The notes under the pieces: generated by a model | Databases searched by the model: none | The model's input: only the letters and a program-made list of their open reading frames with translations | What the model was told of the DNA's origin: nothing | Source of the DNA: Lactiplantibacillus xiangfangensis | GTDB lineage: Bacteria > Bacillota > Bacilli > Lactobacillales > Lactobacillaceae | Assembly: GCF_001438845.1 (NCBI RefSeq) | Contig: NZ_JQCL01000068.1 | Span: forward strand, 1 to 64,000 | Length of the DNA: 64,000 nucleotides | Reading direction: 5' to 3' | Shown: positions 36,569-60,909 of the stretch, one piece after another | Layout: the number at the start of each line of letters is the position of its first letter | Position numbering within the stretch: the first letter of the stretch is position 1 | Position numbers and translations under genes: made by a program

Positions 36569-36715
36569 CTAAAATCGACCACACGCCTTGATACAAAAGG
36601 TATGTGGAATCAAACATTAGATTACTTTCAAATTAAAGGTTGAAACTTAAATTTAGGGGTTAGTTACTGTTGTATCAATGACTGGACTAACAAAATTGGC
36701 TGTTTGTAAGCTATT

Positions 36716-36771
36716 CCGGTCGCCACTGATTTCACCTGCCACGACAGATTTATCATGGTCGACCTCTAGTT
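36716..36771 (-). repeat. short deletion form of structured module 2
   Basis: On the minus strand this begins CTAGAGGTCGACC, includes CTGTCGTG, and ends ATCAGTGGCGACCGG. It aligns with both ends of the full module at 43231-43395 but lacks the two internal hairpins. It lies about 50 bases after module 1 copy A, in the same relative order as the complete pair. The 764-bp gap 36569-37332 otherwise holds module 1, two terminators and AT-rich sequence without a gene I can support. Confidence 0.6.
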
Positions 36772-36820
36772 AAGGTGATTTTTCGATGAAAATTGATTTA
36801 GCTTACTTTTAATCAACCCT

Positions 36821-36994
36821 AGCGAAGCCGGCAGAACCAGTGGGCAGTGTCGGTCATGTCGCCTTGCATATCCTGCCAGGTGACATGGCGGGGCGTCTTG
36901 GAAGACTTGGGCTTTAGGCTTACAAGCGAGGCGGAAGCCCGTACCTTGGCTGCAGCCGACCCCACAGCCCACTGATTCTGTCCGGCGGAGCGAT
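36821..36994 (-). repeat. structured intergenic element, module 1, copy A
   Basis: About 174 bp with an outer inverted repeat (36827-36849 with 36965-36985) enclosing several hairpins. CATGTCGCCT (36855-36864) pairs with AGGTGACATG (36878-36887), GTCTT with AAGAC (36895-36906), and GGGCTT (36909-36914) with AAGCCC (36935-36940). Read on the minus strand it starts CGCTCCGCCGGACAGAAT and carries the shared box GCAGCCAAGGTACGG, closely matching copies at 43021 and 60850. Much more GC-rich than its surroundings. Short open frames across it on the minus strand are not credible genes. Confidence 0.7.
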
Positions 36995-37082
36995 GAAGAA
37001 TCCTATTTTTTATCGTTAACCTTTGATATGACAACGATTGTGTCTAATTTAATACTTTAAACCTTGAGTTTTAAATTTATTG

Positions 37083-41851: not shown

Positions 41852-42853
41852 TTACTTAGCAGTAGTTAACGATGCAACGAAGTCTTCATAAGCGGCTTGT
41901 TCGCCGGTTTCAGTCGCACTGGCTTCACTGTAATCCGCAGCTAACGCTGATTCTACGGGTAGCGTGACGATCCGGACGAAGGTCGCGTTACCAATCAATT
42001 CCATCCAGTACTCTTCGTCAGCACCTTGGTGTACAACGGTTTTAACCATCCCACCAGGATTGGTTACCTTAATTTCTTGGTTGAAATCGGTGCTTTCTTG
42101 ATGTAATAAAACGTACATCAATGAAGAAGCGGACATGGCCGTTCCACAGGCATTCGTGAACCCGACGCCCCGTTCAAACGTCCGGACAAAGATCGCATTT
42201 TTGCCTAACACTTCGACAAAGCTAACGTTGACACCGTCTGGGAAAATGGCGTTCTTGCCGTCATTCATCCATTGACCGATTCGTCCCAATTCAGGACCAA
42301 CCAAAGTGTCATGATCCACAAAAGCAATCAAATGTGGATTAGGCACTGCAACGGCGGAGAACTTCAAATCAGCAGATAACGCTGGAATTTTTTCGTTAAT
42401 GATGGTTGCTGCTTCATTATTAGCATGCATCCCAATCGTCTTAGCATCGAATGACACCGGCGAAATTTCAGCACTAAAGGCTGGCACGTTCTCAGCCAAA
42501 TCGGCAACTGCTTGAACCTTTAAGTCAGCATACATCGTCTGTACTTTGAACGCTTCTTGACTGTTTTGGGTGCCTAAATAACGCGCAACGGTCCGTAAGC
42601 CGTTACCACACATGCTAGCTTCGGTTCCGTCGGCGTTGATGACACGCATCCGACCAAGTACTTGGGAATGTTCGGATTTATCAACGACTAAAACCCCATC
42701 GGCACCATCATAAAGGCCAGCACCATCCCGCTTACAAATGTTAATTGCAAGCTGTTTTAAATCCGCATCAGATAACGGTTCTGGAAATTGTGTTTGATCC
42801 AATAAGTAGAAATCATTACCGGAACCGTGAACCTTGATCATTTTCACTGCCAT
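41852..42853 (-). CDS. dapF: diaminopimelate epimerase
   Basis: Converts LL- to meso-diaminopimelate for peptidoglycan and lysine. 333 residues. Both catalytic cysteines are present in their motifs: ASMCGNGLRTVARY and TNACGTAMSAS. Start ATG 42853 (MAVKMIKVHGSGNDF), with AGGATG six bases ahead; the nine residues before it are dropped. It has a C-terminal tail of about 30 residues (Ala/Glu-rich) beyond the usual domain. It stands apart from other dap genes, as a single gene with its own terminator. Supports a meso-DAP type cell wall. Confidence 0.95.
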   Translation of the reverse strand: MAVKMIKVHGSGNDFYLLDQTQFPEPLSDADLKQLAINICKRDGAGLYDGADGVLVVDKSEHSQVLGRMRVINADGTEASMCGNGLRTVARYLGTQNSQEAFKVQTMYADLKVQAVADLAENVPAFSAEISPVSFDAKTIGMHANNEAATIINEKIPALSADLKFSAVAVPNPHLIAFVDHDTLVGPELGRIGQWMNDGKNAIFPDGVNVSFVEVLGKNAIFVRTFERGVGFTNACGTAMSASSLMYVLLHQESTDFNQEIKVTNPGGMVKTVVHQGADEEYWMELIGNATFVRIVTLPVESALAADYSEASATETGEQAAYEDFVASLTTAK

Positions 42854-43020
42854 CAGCATCCTATCTTTATATAAATTCACTAATTTACTACTTCATTATC
42901 ATACTTATTTTTTCATGAAAATTCAATTACCAAGGACTAAAACAACGCTATAACATAGAAATAGTTTGTCATTAGCCCTTATTGACCGCTTTCAGCCTTA
43001 AATTTCAAACCTCGCCCCAT

Positions 43021-43192
43021 CCGCTCCGCCGAACAGAATTGCGTGCTACGGGGGACGGTCGCAGCCAAAGTACGGTCTGCTCCCTCAATACAAAGCCGAT
43101 AACCCACGTCTTTGTATTGTCCCGCAAGATTGGCGCAAGAATCATTCGCCAATCTTGCCGACACAGCACACCAACTCTGTTCGACTCCGCTA
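43021..43192 (+). repeat. structured intergenic element, module 1, copy B
   Basis: About 172 bp. An outer imperfect stem (43030-43047 with 43164-43183) encloses two perfect hairpins. CAATACAAAG (43086-43095) pairs with CTTTGTATTG (43110-43119), and GCAAGATTGGCG (43124-43135) pairs with CGCCAATCTTGC (43147-43158). The 5' part has the shared boxes CGCTCCGCCGAACAGAAT and GCAGCCAAAGTACGG. The internal hairpins differ in sequence from copy A but keep the same layout. It lies in the 674-bp gap between dapF and ileS. Confidence 0.75.
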
Positions 43193-43230
43193 AAAATGAA
43201 TTTACTATTGCTATTATGATTGGCTAATCA

Positions 43231-43395
43231 GAGGCCGGCACTGATGACATCGGTCGTGAAGGTGGCTTTTGACCGGTGACTTTCCGGTCTTAGGCCACGG
43301 ACGGTCCGGGACAATTGCGCCTTATGCAAGTGCCCCGGACCGTCTCTCAGGCTAGCTCCGGTCCCACGACCGCATGTTATCAGTGACGACCGGGT
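43231..43395 (+). repeat. structured intergenic element, module 2, full copy
   Basis: About 165 bp directly after module 1 copy B. The outer stem CACTGATGACATCGGTCGTG (43239-43258) pairs with 43365-43385. Inside are two strong hairpins: 43262-43276 with 43284-43298 (GTGGC..GACCGG), and 43300-43310 with 43334-43344 (GACGGTCCGGG / CCCGGACCGTC). Again an outer stem with two inner hairpins, a three-way junction shape. A deleted form is at 36716-36771. Confidence 0.75.
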
Positions 43396-43460
43396 CTAAA
43401 AATTCGAATGTTACTATAACAACACCCAAGTCTTATTTTTACCTTTCAGTCTTTCAAATC

Positions 43461-43500
43461 AAAAAAGCCCCGCCATCAAACACCGTTTGACGCGGGACTC
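43461..43500 (-). terminator. terminator of ileS
   Basis: Stem AGTCCCGC..TCAAAC / GTTTGA..GCGGGGCT read on the minus strand with six T after it, 55 bases past ileS. Confidence 0.85.
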
Positions 43501-43554
43501 CATCATTCAAGCACAATCATCAATATTGTGCCGTTAGTAATCAAAGATCAGCGA

Positions 43555-46353
43555 TTAAGCTTCTAATCCAGTTTCAACTGATTCTGGGTAGTTTTCACGT
43601 ACAATCTGAGCACAACGCGCACAGAGTTGTGGGTAGGCGTTGTCACTGCCAACGTCAGTCTTGATCATCCGGCAACGGGAACAAACTTCGCCGTCCGCAT
43701 GACTAACCTTGATGGCAACGTGATCGCCAAAGGTTTCAGCATCACTAGGTGCATCACTCAAAGTGTGAACGTCCAAAGCAGAAACCATTAACATTTGCCG
43801 TACGTTAGTGTTCAAGCTGTCTAAGAAGGTTTGCGTTGCATCATCGACGTATAAGTCAAGATGTGCTTCCAAGGACTTCCCAATCAACTTAGCGTCCCGG
43901 GCTTCTTCTAAAGCCTTTAAGACGTTGCTACGTAAGTCCATGAATTGCGTCCATTCTGCCATTAAATCATCAGCATTGGCGTAATTTTGAACGACTGGCA
44001 TGTCCGTCAATTGTGCAAATTCTTCTGGTTCCTTCAAGAATGGCCAGATTTCTTCGGTCGTATGTGGCAACATTGGCGTGAATAACTTCGTTAACGCAAC
44101 CAAGGTGTCATAGAAGACCGTTTGCATTGAACGCCGTGAATGGCTGTCTTCAGCATCGATATACATGATATCCTTTGCAACGTCTAAGTAGAAGTTAGAT
44201 AAATCAACCGTTAAGAAGTTGATGAGTTCCTTGTAGATGTCGAGGAAGTCGTAGTGATCATAGTGGGCCTTCGTCTTCGCAACGAATTGGTCCAAACGAA
44301 CGGCCATGTATTGGTCAACTGAAGCTAAGTCGTCGTAAGCGACCCGGTCAGTTTCTGGGTCAAAGTCGGCAACGTTTCCTAACATGAAGCGAACCGTATT
44401 CCGGAACTTCTTGTAAGAATCAGCCACTTGTTTGAAGCTTTCCATAGAAACCCGTACGTCGGAGCTGGTATCAACGGAAGCAACCCATAGACGGACGATT
44501 TCAGCACCCATTTGTTTGATAACGTCGATTGGCGCAATCGTGTTGCCTAATGACTTACTCATCTTACGGCCTTGGTTATCCAAGGTGAAACCTTGTGATA
44601 AGACTTGCTTGTATGGTGCGTGTCCAGAAACAACGACACTGGTAATCAAACTAGAGTTGAACCAGCCACGGTATTGGTCTGAACCTTCCAAGTATAAATC
44701 CGCTGGGTAATCAAGGTATGGCCGTTCAGCCAAGACACCTTGGTGTGATGAACCGGAATCAAACCAAACGTCCATAATGTCATCTTCCTTGGTAAATTCA
44801 CCATGAGGAGAATGTTCATTAGTATAGCCTTCTGGTAATAAGTCCTTGGCATCACGTTCAAACCAAACATTCGAACCGTATTGCTTAATCAAGTCAGCAA
44901 CGTGGTTGATCGTTTCTTGTTCCATAATGGCAGTGCCATCTTCAGCGTAAAAGATTGGTAGCGGCACGCCCCAGACCCGTTGCCGTGAAATGACCCAGTC
45001 ACCACGGTCACGAATCATATTGTAAAGGCGCTTCTTACCCCATTCTGGGAAGAATTCGACGTCATCCATCGATTTCAAAATCTTATCGCGCACGTCCCCA
45101 ACGGAAGCAAACCATTGTGGCGTTGCCCGGAAGATGATTGGCTTCTTAGTCCGCCAGTCAAATGGGTAGCTATGTTCGTAAGGCATGTACTTTAAGAGTA
45201 ACCCGGCATCCTTTAACTTATCCAACGCAATTTGGTTGGCGTCATCGTAGAAGACACCAGCAAAGTCAGCACCGGCTTCAGCCGTTAAGTAACCCTTATT
45301 GTCAACTGGTGCAAAGACTGGCAAATCGTACTTCATACCGATCCGGTAGTCATCTTCCCCATAACCAGGCGCCGTATGCACTAGCCCAGTCCCAGAGTCG
45401 AGGGTAACGAAATCGCCTAACATCGTGACTAATTTCCGACTGGCATCAAATGGATGTTCACAAATGACCCGGTCTAAATCGGCCCCTTTAACGGTCTTCA
45501 AGACTTTAACGTCTTCCCAACCGAAGCGTTCAGCGTTTTCGTCAACTAATTCAGCCGCCAAAACAAACTTGCGGCTTTCACCAGCGGGTTGAACAACCGC
45601 GTAGTCGAACTTAGCATCAATCGTAATCCCTTCAGAAGCAGGAATCGTCCATGGTGTCGTGGTCCAGACAACCATGTAAGTATCGTCATCTAAGACACCC
45701 TTGCCGTCAGTAACCTTTTCAGCGAAAAATGCGGATGGTGACGTAATGTCGTGGTATTCAACTTCGGCTTCAGCCAAAGCAGATTCGGATGACCATGACC
45801 AGTACACTGGCTTCTTACCGCGGTAGATCAGGTTTTGTTTAGCAAATGCACCGAAGACACGAATTTGAGCGGCTTCGAATTCTGGCTTCAAAGTCAAATA
45901 TGGGTTGTCCCATTCGCCAGCAACACCTAAGCGTTTAAATTCTTCACGTTGGCGATCCACTTGTTTCAACGCGTATTCGCGACAAAGTTCGCGGAATTCG
46001 TTGGTGGTCATCTTTTTACGGTCATAACCGGCCTGTTTTAATTTCTGTTCAATTGGCAAACCGTGTGTATCCCAACCAGGAACGTACGGTGCGCGGAAAC
46101 CGTTCATTGACTTGTAACGAACGATAAAGTCCTTGGTGATCTTATTTAGGGCATGACCCATGTGAATATCACCGTTAGCGTAAGGAGGGCCATCGTGTAA
46201 AATAAAGCTCGGCTTACCTTCATTCAATTTTTGACGTTGTTCATAAACTTTGTTTTCAGTCCAAACGTCTTGGCGCTCGACTTCTTTAACTGGTAAATTA
46301 CCACGCATTTTAAACTTGGTTTTACCGAGGTTTAACGTATCTTTAACGCGCAT
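43555..46353 (-). CDS. ileS: isoleucyl-tRNA synthetase
   Basis: Charges tRNA-Ile, with an editing domain against valine. 932 residues, full length. The HIGH motif is in [16 protein letters not shown] (about residue 57), the CP1 editing domain follows, and KMSKSLGN (about residue 590) is the KMSKS motif. The C-terminal zinc finger has [10 protein letters not shown] and CARC pairs. The type (short, zinc at C-terminus) is the common bacterial form. Preceded by a T-box leader with an isoleucine-type specifier, so expressed when uncharged tRNA-Ile builds up. Confidence 0.97.
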
Positions 46354-46405: not shown

Positions 46406-46436
46406 AAAAAAACTCCGCCCTGCAAGGGACGAAGTT
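46406..46436 (-). terminator. T-box terminator ahead of ileS
   Basis: Stem AACTTCGTCCC / GGGCGGAGTT followed by TTTTTTT on the minus strand. The 5' arm overlaps the antiterminator side of the T-box, so the two structures exclude each other. Confidence 0.9.
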
Positions 46437-46640
46437 ATCGTGGTACCACCCAATTTTAGAATTGTTTAGATTCTCTCTTAGCATGGATTAACGGTCATGA
46501 ACCGGCCACGCTTACTTGGTTCAACGTGACATTCAGAGATGATCTGCAACCTAGTGAGGGACGATTGCCTTTCCATTATCGGCAACTCTCTGGGCGTTTC
46601 ACTAAGTTGTTTACTGTTCTCTTCAAAAATTTAACTGATA
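46406..46640 (-). promoter_or_regulatory. T-box riboswitch leader of ileS
   Basis: The T-box core is at 46437-46450 on the minus strand (TGGGTGGTACCACGA), just ahead of the terminator. Upstream on the mRNA are a stem I-like region (start near 46590) and a specifier candidate ATC followed by A at 46541-46543 in GATCATCTCTGAAT, which codes isoleucine. It reads the charge of tRNA-Ile. The 295-bp gap between divIVA and ileS is almost all this leader. Confidence 0.92.
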
Positions 46641-60735: not shown

Positions 60736-60849
60736 CGTAAATTCCTACTATGACAAATCCAAACAAGTGGCCTTACTTAAAACGGATTCGCACGTTTCCT
60801 TTCTTTAATTCTGTTAAGGGTTAAAAGGTCAATTTAAAAATTAAATACT

Positions 60850-60909
60850 TCAGATCGCAGTTCGGCTGAGACCGTCCCTCATAGCACAAGGCTACCCGAC
60901 GGAGCGCTT
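60850..60909 (-). repeat. structured intergenic element, module 1, truncated copy C
   Basis: On the minus strand the 60-bp stretch starts AAGCGCTCCGTCGG, passes GTGCTATGAGGGACGGTC and ends CAGCCGAACTGCGATCTGA. This follows the first 60 bases of copy B (43021-43080) base for base except scattered changes and one gap. The hairpin part and closing arm are missing, so it is a remnant. The rest of the gap up to corA has the corA promoter. Confidence 0.65.

Follow-up and report, generated by a model that had tools for sequence, protein, structure and literature searches.

A divergent pair of structured units between dapF and ileS of Lactiplantibacillus xiangfangensis looks like a decaying copy of a mobile element

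The window analysed here is a stretch of 64,000 nucleotides from L. xiangfangensis, in which the spacer between dapF and ileS holds two adjacent structured units, A (module 1) and B (module 2). The features of the locus and its relatives in the window are given below by window position, with unit scores from two models, R1 and R2.

41852-42880, minus strand: dapF, flanking, pointing away from unit A (TIGR00652, 157.5 bits)
43020-43202, minus strand: unit A, module 1 (R2 180.7 bits, E 7.7e-48, the copy itself being in the R2 alignment)
43194-43024, minus strand: unit A as matched by R1, which was built only from B-type units (58.0 bits, E 6.1e-17)
43086-43119, minus strand: unit A hairpin with a perfect 10-bp stem, 43086-43095/43110-43119 (sequence; covariation in alignment A3)
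43124-43158, minus strand: unit A hairpin with a perfect 12-bp stem, 43124-43135/43147-43158 (sequence; covariation in A3)
43203-43223, no strand: AT-rich linker separating units A and B (alignment; no conserved sigma-70 promoter found)
43224-43395, plus strand: unit B, module 2 (R1 147.4 bits, E 3.6e-45)
43239-43385, plus strand: unit B outer stem, 43239-43258/43365-43385, with one bulge (sequence, fold)
43464-43501, minus strand: terminator-like hairpin with a T run after ileS, ahead of the element (MFE -23.7, z -4.59)
43555-46353, minus strand: ileS, flanking, with its 3' end facing unit B (TIGR00392, 937.8 bits)
36633-37068, minus strand: second copy of the element, inverted, with degenerate terminal repeats (end-repeat scan)
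36810-36994, plus strand: type A unit within that second copy (R2 133.8 bits, E 4.3e-35)
60770-60908, plus strand: decayed type A fragment (R2 17.5 bits, E 0.0018)

The units lie head to head, A being best read on the minus strand and B on the plus strand. An earlier note had reported two adjacent structured modules here, and they are real: both fold better than all of 200 dinucleotide shuffles each (0/200 as good for 43005-43195, z -6.23, and for 43225-43400, z -7.95). The inner stems that it had called perfect in module 1 are so when read from the sequence, and its outer stem of module 2 pairs, with one bulge. It had also described the two modules as folding alike, each with an outer repeat enclosing two hairpins; the outer stem holds in both, the hairpins number three rather than two in the family folds of both units, and a second short stem enclosing two of the three hairpins is found in unit B only, the consensus fold of unit A being without it. 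As a further correction, the minus strand gives the better fold for module 1 and the plus strand for module 2. The observation itself is thus confirmed, and the element is larger than was described. A B-type unit measures about 185 nt and has five helices; the window's unit B is without 12 nt of the last hairpin, as seen in both the alignment and the R1 match, and its R1 score of 147.4 bits compares with 186–204 bits for eight other Lactiplantibacillus copies.

The fold is conserved and its covariation is very strong. Alignment A3 comprises 47 rows of unit A on the minus strand, and A4 comprises 46 rows of unit B on the plus strand; in their consensus folds, two-sided changes that kept pairing were found at 37 of 56 and 29 of 59 pairs, respectively. 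When 67 units of four other genera were aligned to R1, 92.9% of the cells were paired vs. 69.8% when shuffled and 35–40% when slid, covariation was 0.637 vs. 0.199, and 55 of the 59 pairs showed two-sided changes; this alignment leans to R1, but RNAalifold, run on it without the structure of the model, recovers an almost identical fold. The compensatory stem changes across copies that the earlier note had named as a check are therefore strong in A3, in A4 and in other genera, as well as at the orthologous insertions treated below. A loop motif, AGACCG...GGCT, was recovered with loose patterns in 47/47 rows of A3, 45/46 of A4 and 38/67 of the other-genus rows, and in 0/67 shuffled rows. Since R1 matches unit A over its full length, R2 matches the window's unit B (E 2.6e-4) and the loop motif is common to both, the two head-to-head modules are most likely related to each other. 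No credible match to a known family was obtained: the gathering scan of the window with Rfam 15 returned only a T-box elsewhere, the E-value scan gave within the element a single microRNA match at chance level (E 0.73), and six other-genus loci gave none at E ≤ 0.1. The T-box is the leader upstream of ileS (46422-46635, minus strand; RF00230, 100.2 bits), as expected for that gene. A protein-coding reading was dropped without a formal test, the indels between units not being multiples of three by eye.

Searches of the same and related genomes, also proposed in the earlier note, returned many relatives. A DNA search of the own genome (G000), with 40 of 113 candidates scored, gave at least 65 matches at E ≤ 10. 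These lie on both strands of numerous contigs; long matches are 71–84% identical, and many of the weakest are palindrome echoes. With the models, at least 124 matches were found at E ≤ 0.01 for R2 (150 of 840 candidates scored), at least seven of which are echoes overlapping a stronger opposite-strand match, and at least 81 at E ≤ 1e-10 for R1 (125 of 1129 candidates scored). Single-module DNA searches gave further copies; full, solo-A and solo-B forms are all present. Three divergent pairs (C53:99401-99789, C23:351549-351948, C97:51875-52276) possibly form a second subfamily, in which R2 scores 106–136 bits for one unit and 78–91 for the other; the 36.8-kb copy of the window scores likewise.

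Alignment of the copies shows a conserved core, with outer parts that can be aligned in some only. End repeats within 150 bp of the core were found on both sides at 9 of 61 own-genome copies, on one side at 20 and on neither at 32, and one copy (L013) is flanked by a 7-bp repeat, TTATTAA, noted by eye. In the sister genome G001 both ends were present, with two mismatches at most, in 16 of 18 aligned copies, the remaining two having one end; the reversed string used as a control gave 4/143.

DNA matches at E ≤ 1e-5 were obtained in 8 of 21 genus genomes. In G001 the element occupies 19 loci. The copy used as query measures 541 bp, with ends CTAAAGGTTGAAA, and ten other near-full matches are 92–99% identical to it. 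Of the 17 two-ended loci, 10 are flanked by an exact direct repeat of 7 bp or longer (8 bp or longer in nine), with a 2-base boundary shift allowed, compared with 1/272 for mismatched flank pairs; three more loci match at 7 of 8 positions and four are without a direct repeat. The same 13-bp ends also bound a 1567-bp IS4-family element (G001:C1:64426-65992) that encodes a 457-aa transposase (NF049925 IS4, 460 bits vs. a cut-off of 250). Terminal inverted repeats, target-site duplication and ends in common with an intact transposase-encoding element, by which MITEs are recognised, are thus all present in G001, and seven loci there carry internal deletions between intact ends, deletions of the kind that create solo units. 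On these sequence patterns mobility in G001 appears established, and the Lactiplantibacillus pair can be assigned to a non-autonomous IS4-type transposon (MITE) carrying two units of a structured family. That we are dealing with a mobile element plus a new family is, in our judgement, nearly certain. In G007, many contigs stop within about 30 nt of the CTAAAGGTTGAAAG end (L204-L207, L211, L213, L215-L219), a placement that near-identical young copies of a diverged element would cause by breaking the assembly.

Nine genus genomes were searched for the transposase at E ≤ 1e-20. G001 holds the full protein and a relative 53% identical over 374 of 457 residues, G014 and G018 hold pieces, and none was found in G000 and five other genomes, so the window copies are probably stranded. 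At the dapF-ileS copy terminal repeats were not found, and this copy looks like an immobile, decaying one with its ends lost, for which we infer an IS4 origin. Copies elsewhere in the window, as claimed in the earlier note, comprise a clear one near 36.8 kb (133.8 bits) and, near 60.8 kb, a decayed piece (17.5 bits). The left end of the former, an end repeat at 36633-36645, has one mismatch and its probable right end at 37056-37068 two, the entire window giving six end-repeat matches with at most two mismatches. Placement of the right end is uncertain, the inverted repeat I1 pairing the left end with 37002-37031 instead. A unit B remnant was seen by eye in this copy at about 36716-36730.

Across the genus, R1 matched 12 of 21 genomes at E ≤ 1e-10, with 18 to at least 125 matches each (125 candidates scored per genome), some of which may be A-type units or antisense echoes; seven of the 21 genomes have between about 80 and at least 125 such matches apiece. 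G005, G009 and G014 each gave at least 125 R1 matches at that threshold among the 125 candidates scored, and their true numbers may be higher. At the family level, R1 matched 52 of 301 Lactobacillaceae genomes from 10 of 40 genera at E ≤ 0.001 (8 candidates scored per genome), and in a class-level draw of 299 genomes (8 candidates scored each) it matched the own genome of the window only. Carriers of the exact pattern were L. nangangensis, L. pingfangensis and an uncultured Lactobacillus MAG. Five plasmids of beer bacteria carry the unit, four from Loigolactobacillus backii and one from Pediococcus damnosus; other plasmid and phage DNA-similarity searches gave no match, and viral contigs no exact pattern match. 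The solo unit on beer-isolate plasmids of these two species (L356:3001-3191, L357:3001-3191) sits between genes for a carboxymuconolactone decarboxylase and a MerR regulator.

Whether the fold is read from RNA or from DNA was approached through its strand sense. Raw folding preferred the minus strand in 142 of 145 unit A copies and the plus strand in 157 of 167 unit B copies; most of the strand energy difference, however, is recovered after shuffling (module 1, 13.4 raw and 10.5 shuffled; module 2, -12.1 and -8.2), which leaves an excess over composition of 2.9 kcal/mol for unit A and 3.9 kcal/mol for unit B in samples of 60, and no excess in other genera (-0.45, p 0.52). Folding energy was hence set aside as stand-alone evidence, being mostly base composition. 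For single transitions in orthologous pairs, G-U outnumbers A-C by 32 to 14 (p 0.011; 15:5 in a stricter set, p 0.04), and the G-U:A-C ratio is 84:32 in A3 (22 vs. 5 by pairs), 53:31 in A4 (18 vs. 12 by pairs, p 0.36, not significant) and 152:56 in A5 (30 vs. 8 by pairs), the last alignment having been fitted to the sense model. With a strand-neutral fold built without G-U, module 1 gave 183:67 (17 pairs vs. 8, p 0.11), an excess that is about zero in G001 and G002 copies, and module 2 gave 16:14 over only 7 pairs. We consider it fairly probable that the element acts as RNA.

A fold working as single-stranded DNA, recognised by an integrase, an HUH enzyme or a nucleoid protein as with attC and REP, would also tolerate G-T on one strand, so the strand bias fits that reading too. 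It would likewise agree with the linker, where sigma-70 scans found no conserved promoter (mean scores fell below shuffled in G001, G002 and G014 and above in G000 and G012), and with the divergent pairs outside Lactiplantibacillus, none of 22 being surrounded by a target duplication of at least 6 bp. Movement in G001, however, fits ordinary transposon rules, and a Y1 transposase (PF01797) does not track with the structured family: seven of the 18 carriers tested have it, as do six of the 11 non-carriers, and it is absent from G000, G001, G007 and G012. On this ground HUH/RAYT mobilisation was rejected. We regard the DNA reading as unlikely, and RNA rather than folded single-stranded DNA as the likely form of action. 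The earlier note had offered a non-coding RNA family, a non-autonomous mobile repeat or a repeat of chromosome structure; the first two look right at once, with RNA action likely, and its interpretation is in that respect supported.

The head-to-head order recurs beyond the genus. Around R1 matches in four other genera, divergent neighbouring pairs were seen at 23 of 40 loci, with gaps of about 50–510 bp, and convergent pairs at none of the 40, some of which overlap an earlier locus set. Exceptions are a same-strand pair (L324) and two same-strand units about 0.9 kb apart (L317); two loci (L326, L330) hold an extra unit and the remaining ones show one unit. In a tree of 54 units, made after removal of 8 antisense echoes, each of six pairs from genus g25 contributes one member to the group of Lactiplantibacillus unit A (ultrafast bootstrap 100, SH-like 0.99) and its second member to that of unit B (bootstrap 91, with SH-like support of only 0.54). 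The two unit types are therefore probably older than the split of the two genera, as far as this grouping indicates, and transfer between genera is possible.

Such a pair could be a mobile two-gene RNA system, in which two related RNAs act in trans with a dedicated protein of the host or the element; the divergent pair would then predate the two-genus split and occupy about a hundred sites per genome, with the IS4-type transposon as one vehicle, and we give this a low probability. A simpler version, two free small RNAs expressed from a divergent promoter in the linker and acting in trans, would profit from the 23 head-to-head loci, the lack of convergent ones and the apparent age of the two-type pair; the linker, however, varies in length and sequence between genera and holds no conserved promoter consensus. 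The divergent linker promoter was scanned for and not supported, and this version appears quite improbable.

Template switching at quasi-palindromes is a known mutational process, and during replication it could repair imperfect palindromes and keep the arms complementary without selection or function. The units are sufficiently palindromic for R1 to match unit B in antisense as well (30–42 bits, 8 copies). This process predicts equal numbers of G-T and A-C intermediates, in contrast to the 32:14 found; moreover, loop columns are conserved more often than stem columns (in A5, 22 of 60 unpaired vs. 24 of 118 paired columns are at least 90% conserved), and the divergent order recurs in four other genera, all of which makes it a very unlikely account.

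Selection could be assessed most directly where two species share the same insertion. Seven of 12 close cross-species pairs were used, in which 13 double changes kept pairing and one broke it, compared with 2.6 and 2.8 in a neutral simulation whose maximum was 8 kept doubles in 400 runs; one-sided changes that break a pair numbered 16 vs. 63 expected, and those that keep it 29 vs. 34. Five pairs (L006/L190, L028/L188, L062/L225, L077/L099, L079/L174) were left out because element divergence (13–38%) exceeded flank divergence or the alignment was partial, and some of them could be gene-conversion cases; keeping L017/L239, at 12.7% element divergence, was a judgement call. With all 12 pairs the doubles are 38 kept and 8 other, and the one-sided changes 40 kept and 24 broken. 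Deeper orthology rows (L003 twice, L011, L014) were excluded, since by our own rough estimate chance alone should produce a few shared intergenic regions. Among g21 units sharing at least one orthologous flank, kept doubles numbered 4, 5, 1 and 5 vs. 0, 1, 0 and 1 broken, the first three comparisons sharing sequences; flank-sharing units of g16 gave 3 kept vs. 1 broken, and those of g25 none of either. These counts support the view that the folds have been kept by selection after insertion. A plain selfish repeat, its structure a fixed ancestral sequence spread by copying, would agree with the 92–99% identity of full G001 copies and with internal deletions yielding solo units, and is nonetheless highly improbable, since changes that compensate each other at an insertion shared by two species cannot have come from the source copy, unless gene conversion replaced whole copies.

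The genes around the element were tabulated for 143 aligned elements from five Lactiplantibacillus genomes, leaving out 9 that overlap an ORF and 4 for which two neighbours could not be called. The 130 elements kept comprise 59 with convergent, 59 with co-oriented and 12 with divergent neighbours. Simple ORF calls were used for a background of 244 spacers of 50 bp or more, drawn from the window and 57 further loci: 51 are convergent, 130 co-oriented and 63 divergent, while the 33 elements in those same loci number 13, 18 and 2 in that order. A stricter gene call places 16 of 44 elements between convergent genes in those loci; with either call the excess there is smaller than in the 130-element set. 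The co-oriented neighbours run leftward relative to the element 40 times and rightward 19 times, an asymmetry between the two unit sides. A riboswitch or leader for one gene class was rejected: a constant upstream, co-oriented position was not found, 59 of the 130 elements lying between convergent genes.

The explanation we favour overall, with reasonable though not high confidence, is a decaying copy of an IS4-type MITE that carries a divergent pair of a new structured family. The sequences of G001 support transposition there by the enzyme of an intact IS4-family relative, which acted on the shared CTAAAGGTTGAAA ends and left duplications of about 8 bp; the window copy would have arisen in the same way. 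In the older genomes one or both ends are gone from many copies while selection maintains both folds, which most probably work as RNA once a unit is transcribed. Since the units are head to head, read-through from either side would carry one sense unit, so that both orientations could work, and together with the convergent-gene excess this order suggests a structured 3' element that might block, protect or process transcript ends. The excess is equally expected from selection against promoter insertion, and the terminator-like hairpin of ileS itself precedes the element, which counts against this explanation; we put forward the 3'-end role as the likeliest one, but tentatively, as weakly supported and rather doubtful. 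A simple terminator scan of 42860-43560 gave no terminator-like site and also missed the ileS hairpin.

The kind of element is known, namely structured mobile intergenic repeats; its size, its fold, its recurrent divergent two-type pairing and its spread over 10 genera are new. Like other IS4-family MITEs it has terminal repeats in common with an intact IS4 element, target duplications and no transposase gene, but its cargo is a conserved pair of structured units that is kept in copies with lost ends, and the units also occur in genera where target duplications were not found. The bcr repeats of the Bacillus cereus group, BOX and RUP of pneumococcus, ERIC and Correia likewise have many intergenic copies and fold, and some are mobilised by IS elements. 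The present unit differs from them in its length of about 185 nt, in the five helices of its B-type fold, in its occurrence in 10 genera and in its frequent arrangement in divergent two-type pairs. REP/BIME repeats with RAYT are also palindromic and intergenic and can form inverted pairs, but REP repeats are given as 20–40 bp in PMC3733652, far shorter than the unit described here, with which the Y1 transposase does not track. Rfam families resemble it in having a structured, RNA-like fold with covariation, none matching above its curated threshold. In the literature searched, whose coverage stops short of subscription journals and bioRxiv, no description of the element was found in the available texts; the term match in PMC2267715 is one table row, on L. 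johnsonii, and PMC8632094 holds no occurrence of the searched terms. If the units act as RNA, they would constitute an abundant structured RNA family, without a match in Rfam 15, in a well-studied family of food and gut bacteria, and would join structure-selected non-coding transposon cargo with large bacterial RNAs of unclear role. The named carriers are fermentation and beer bacteria.
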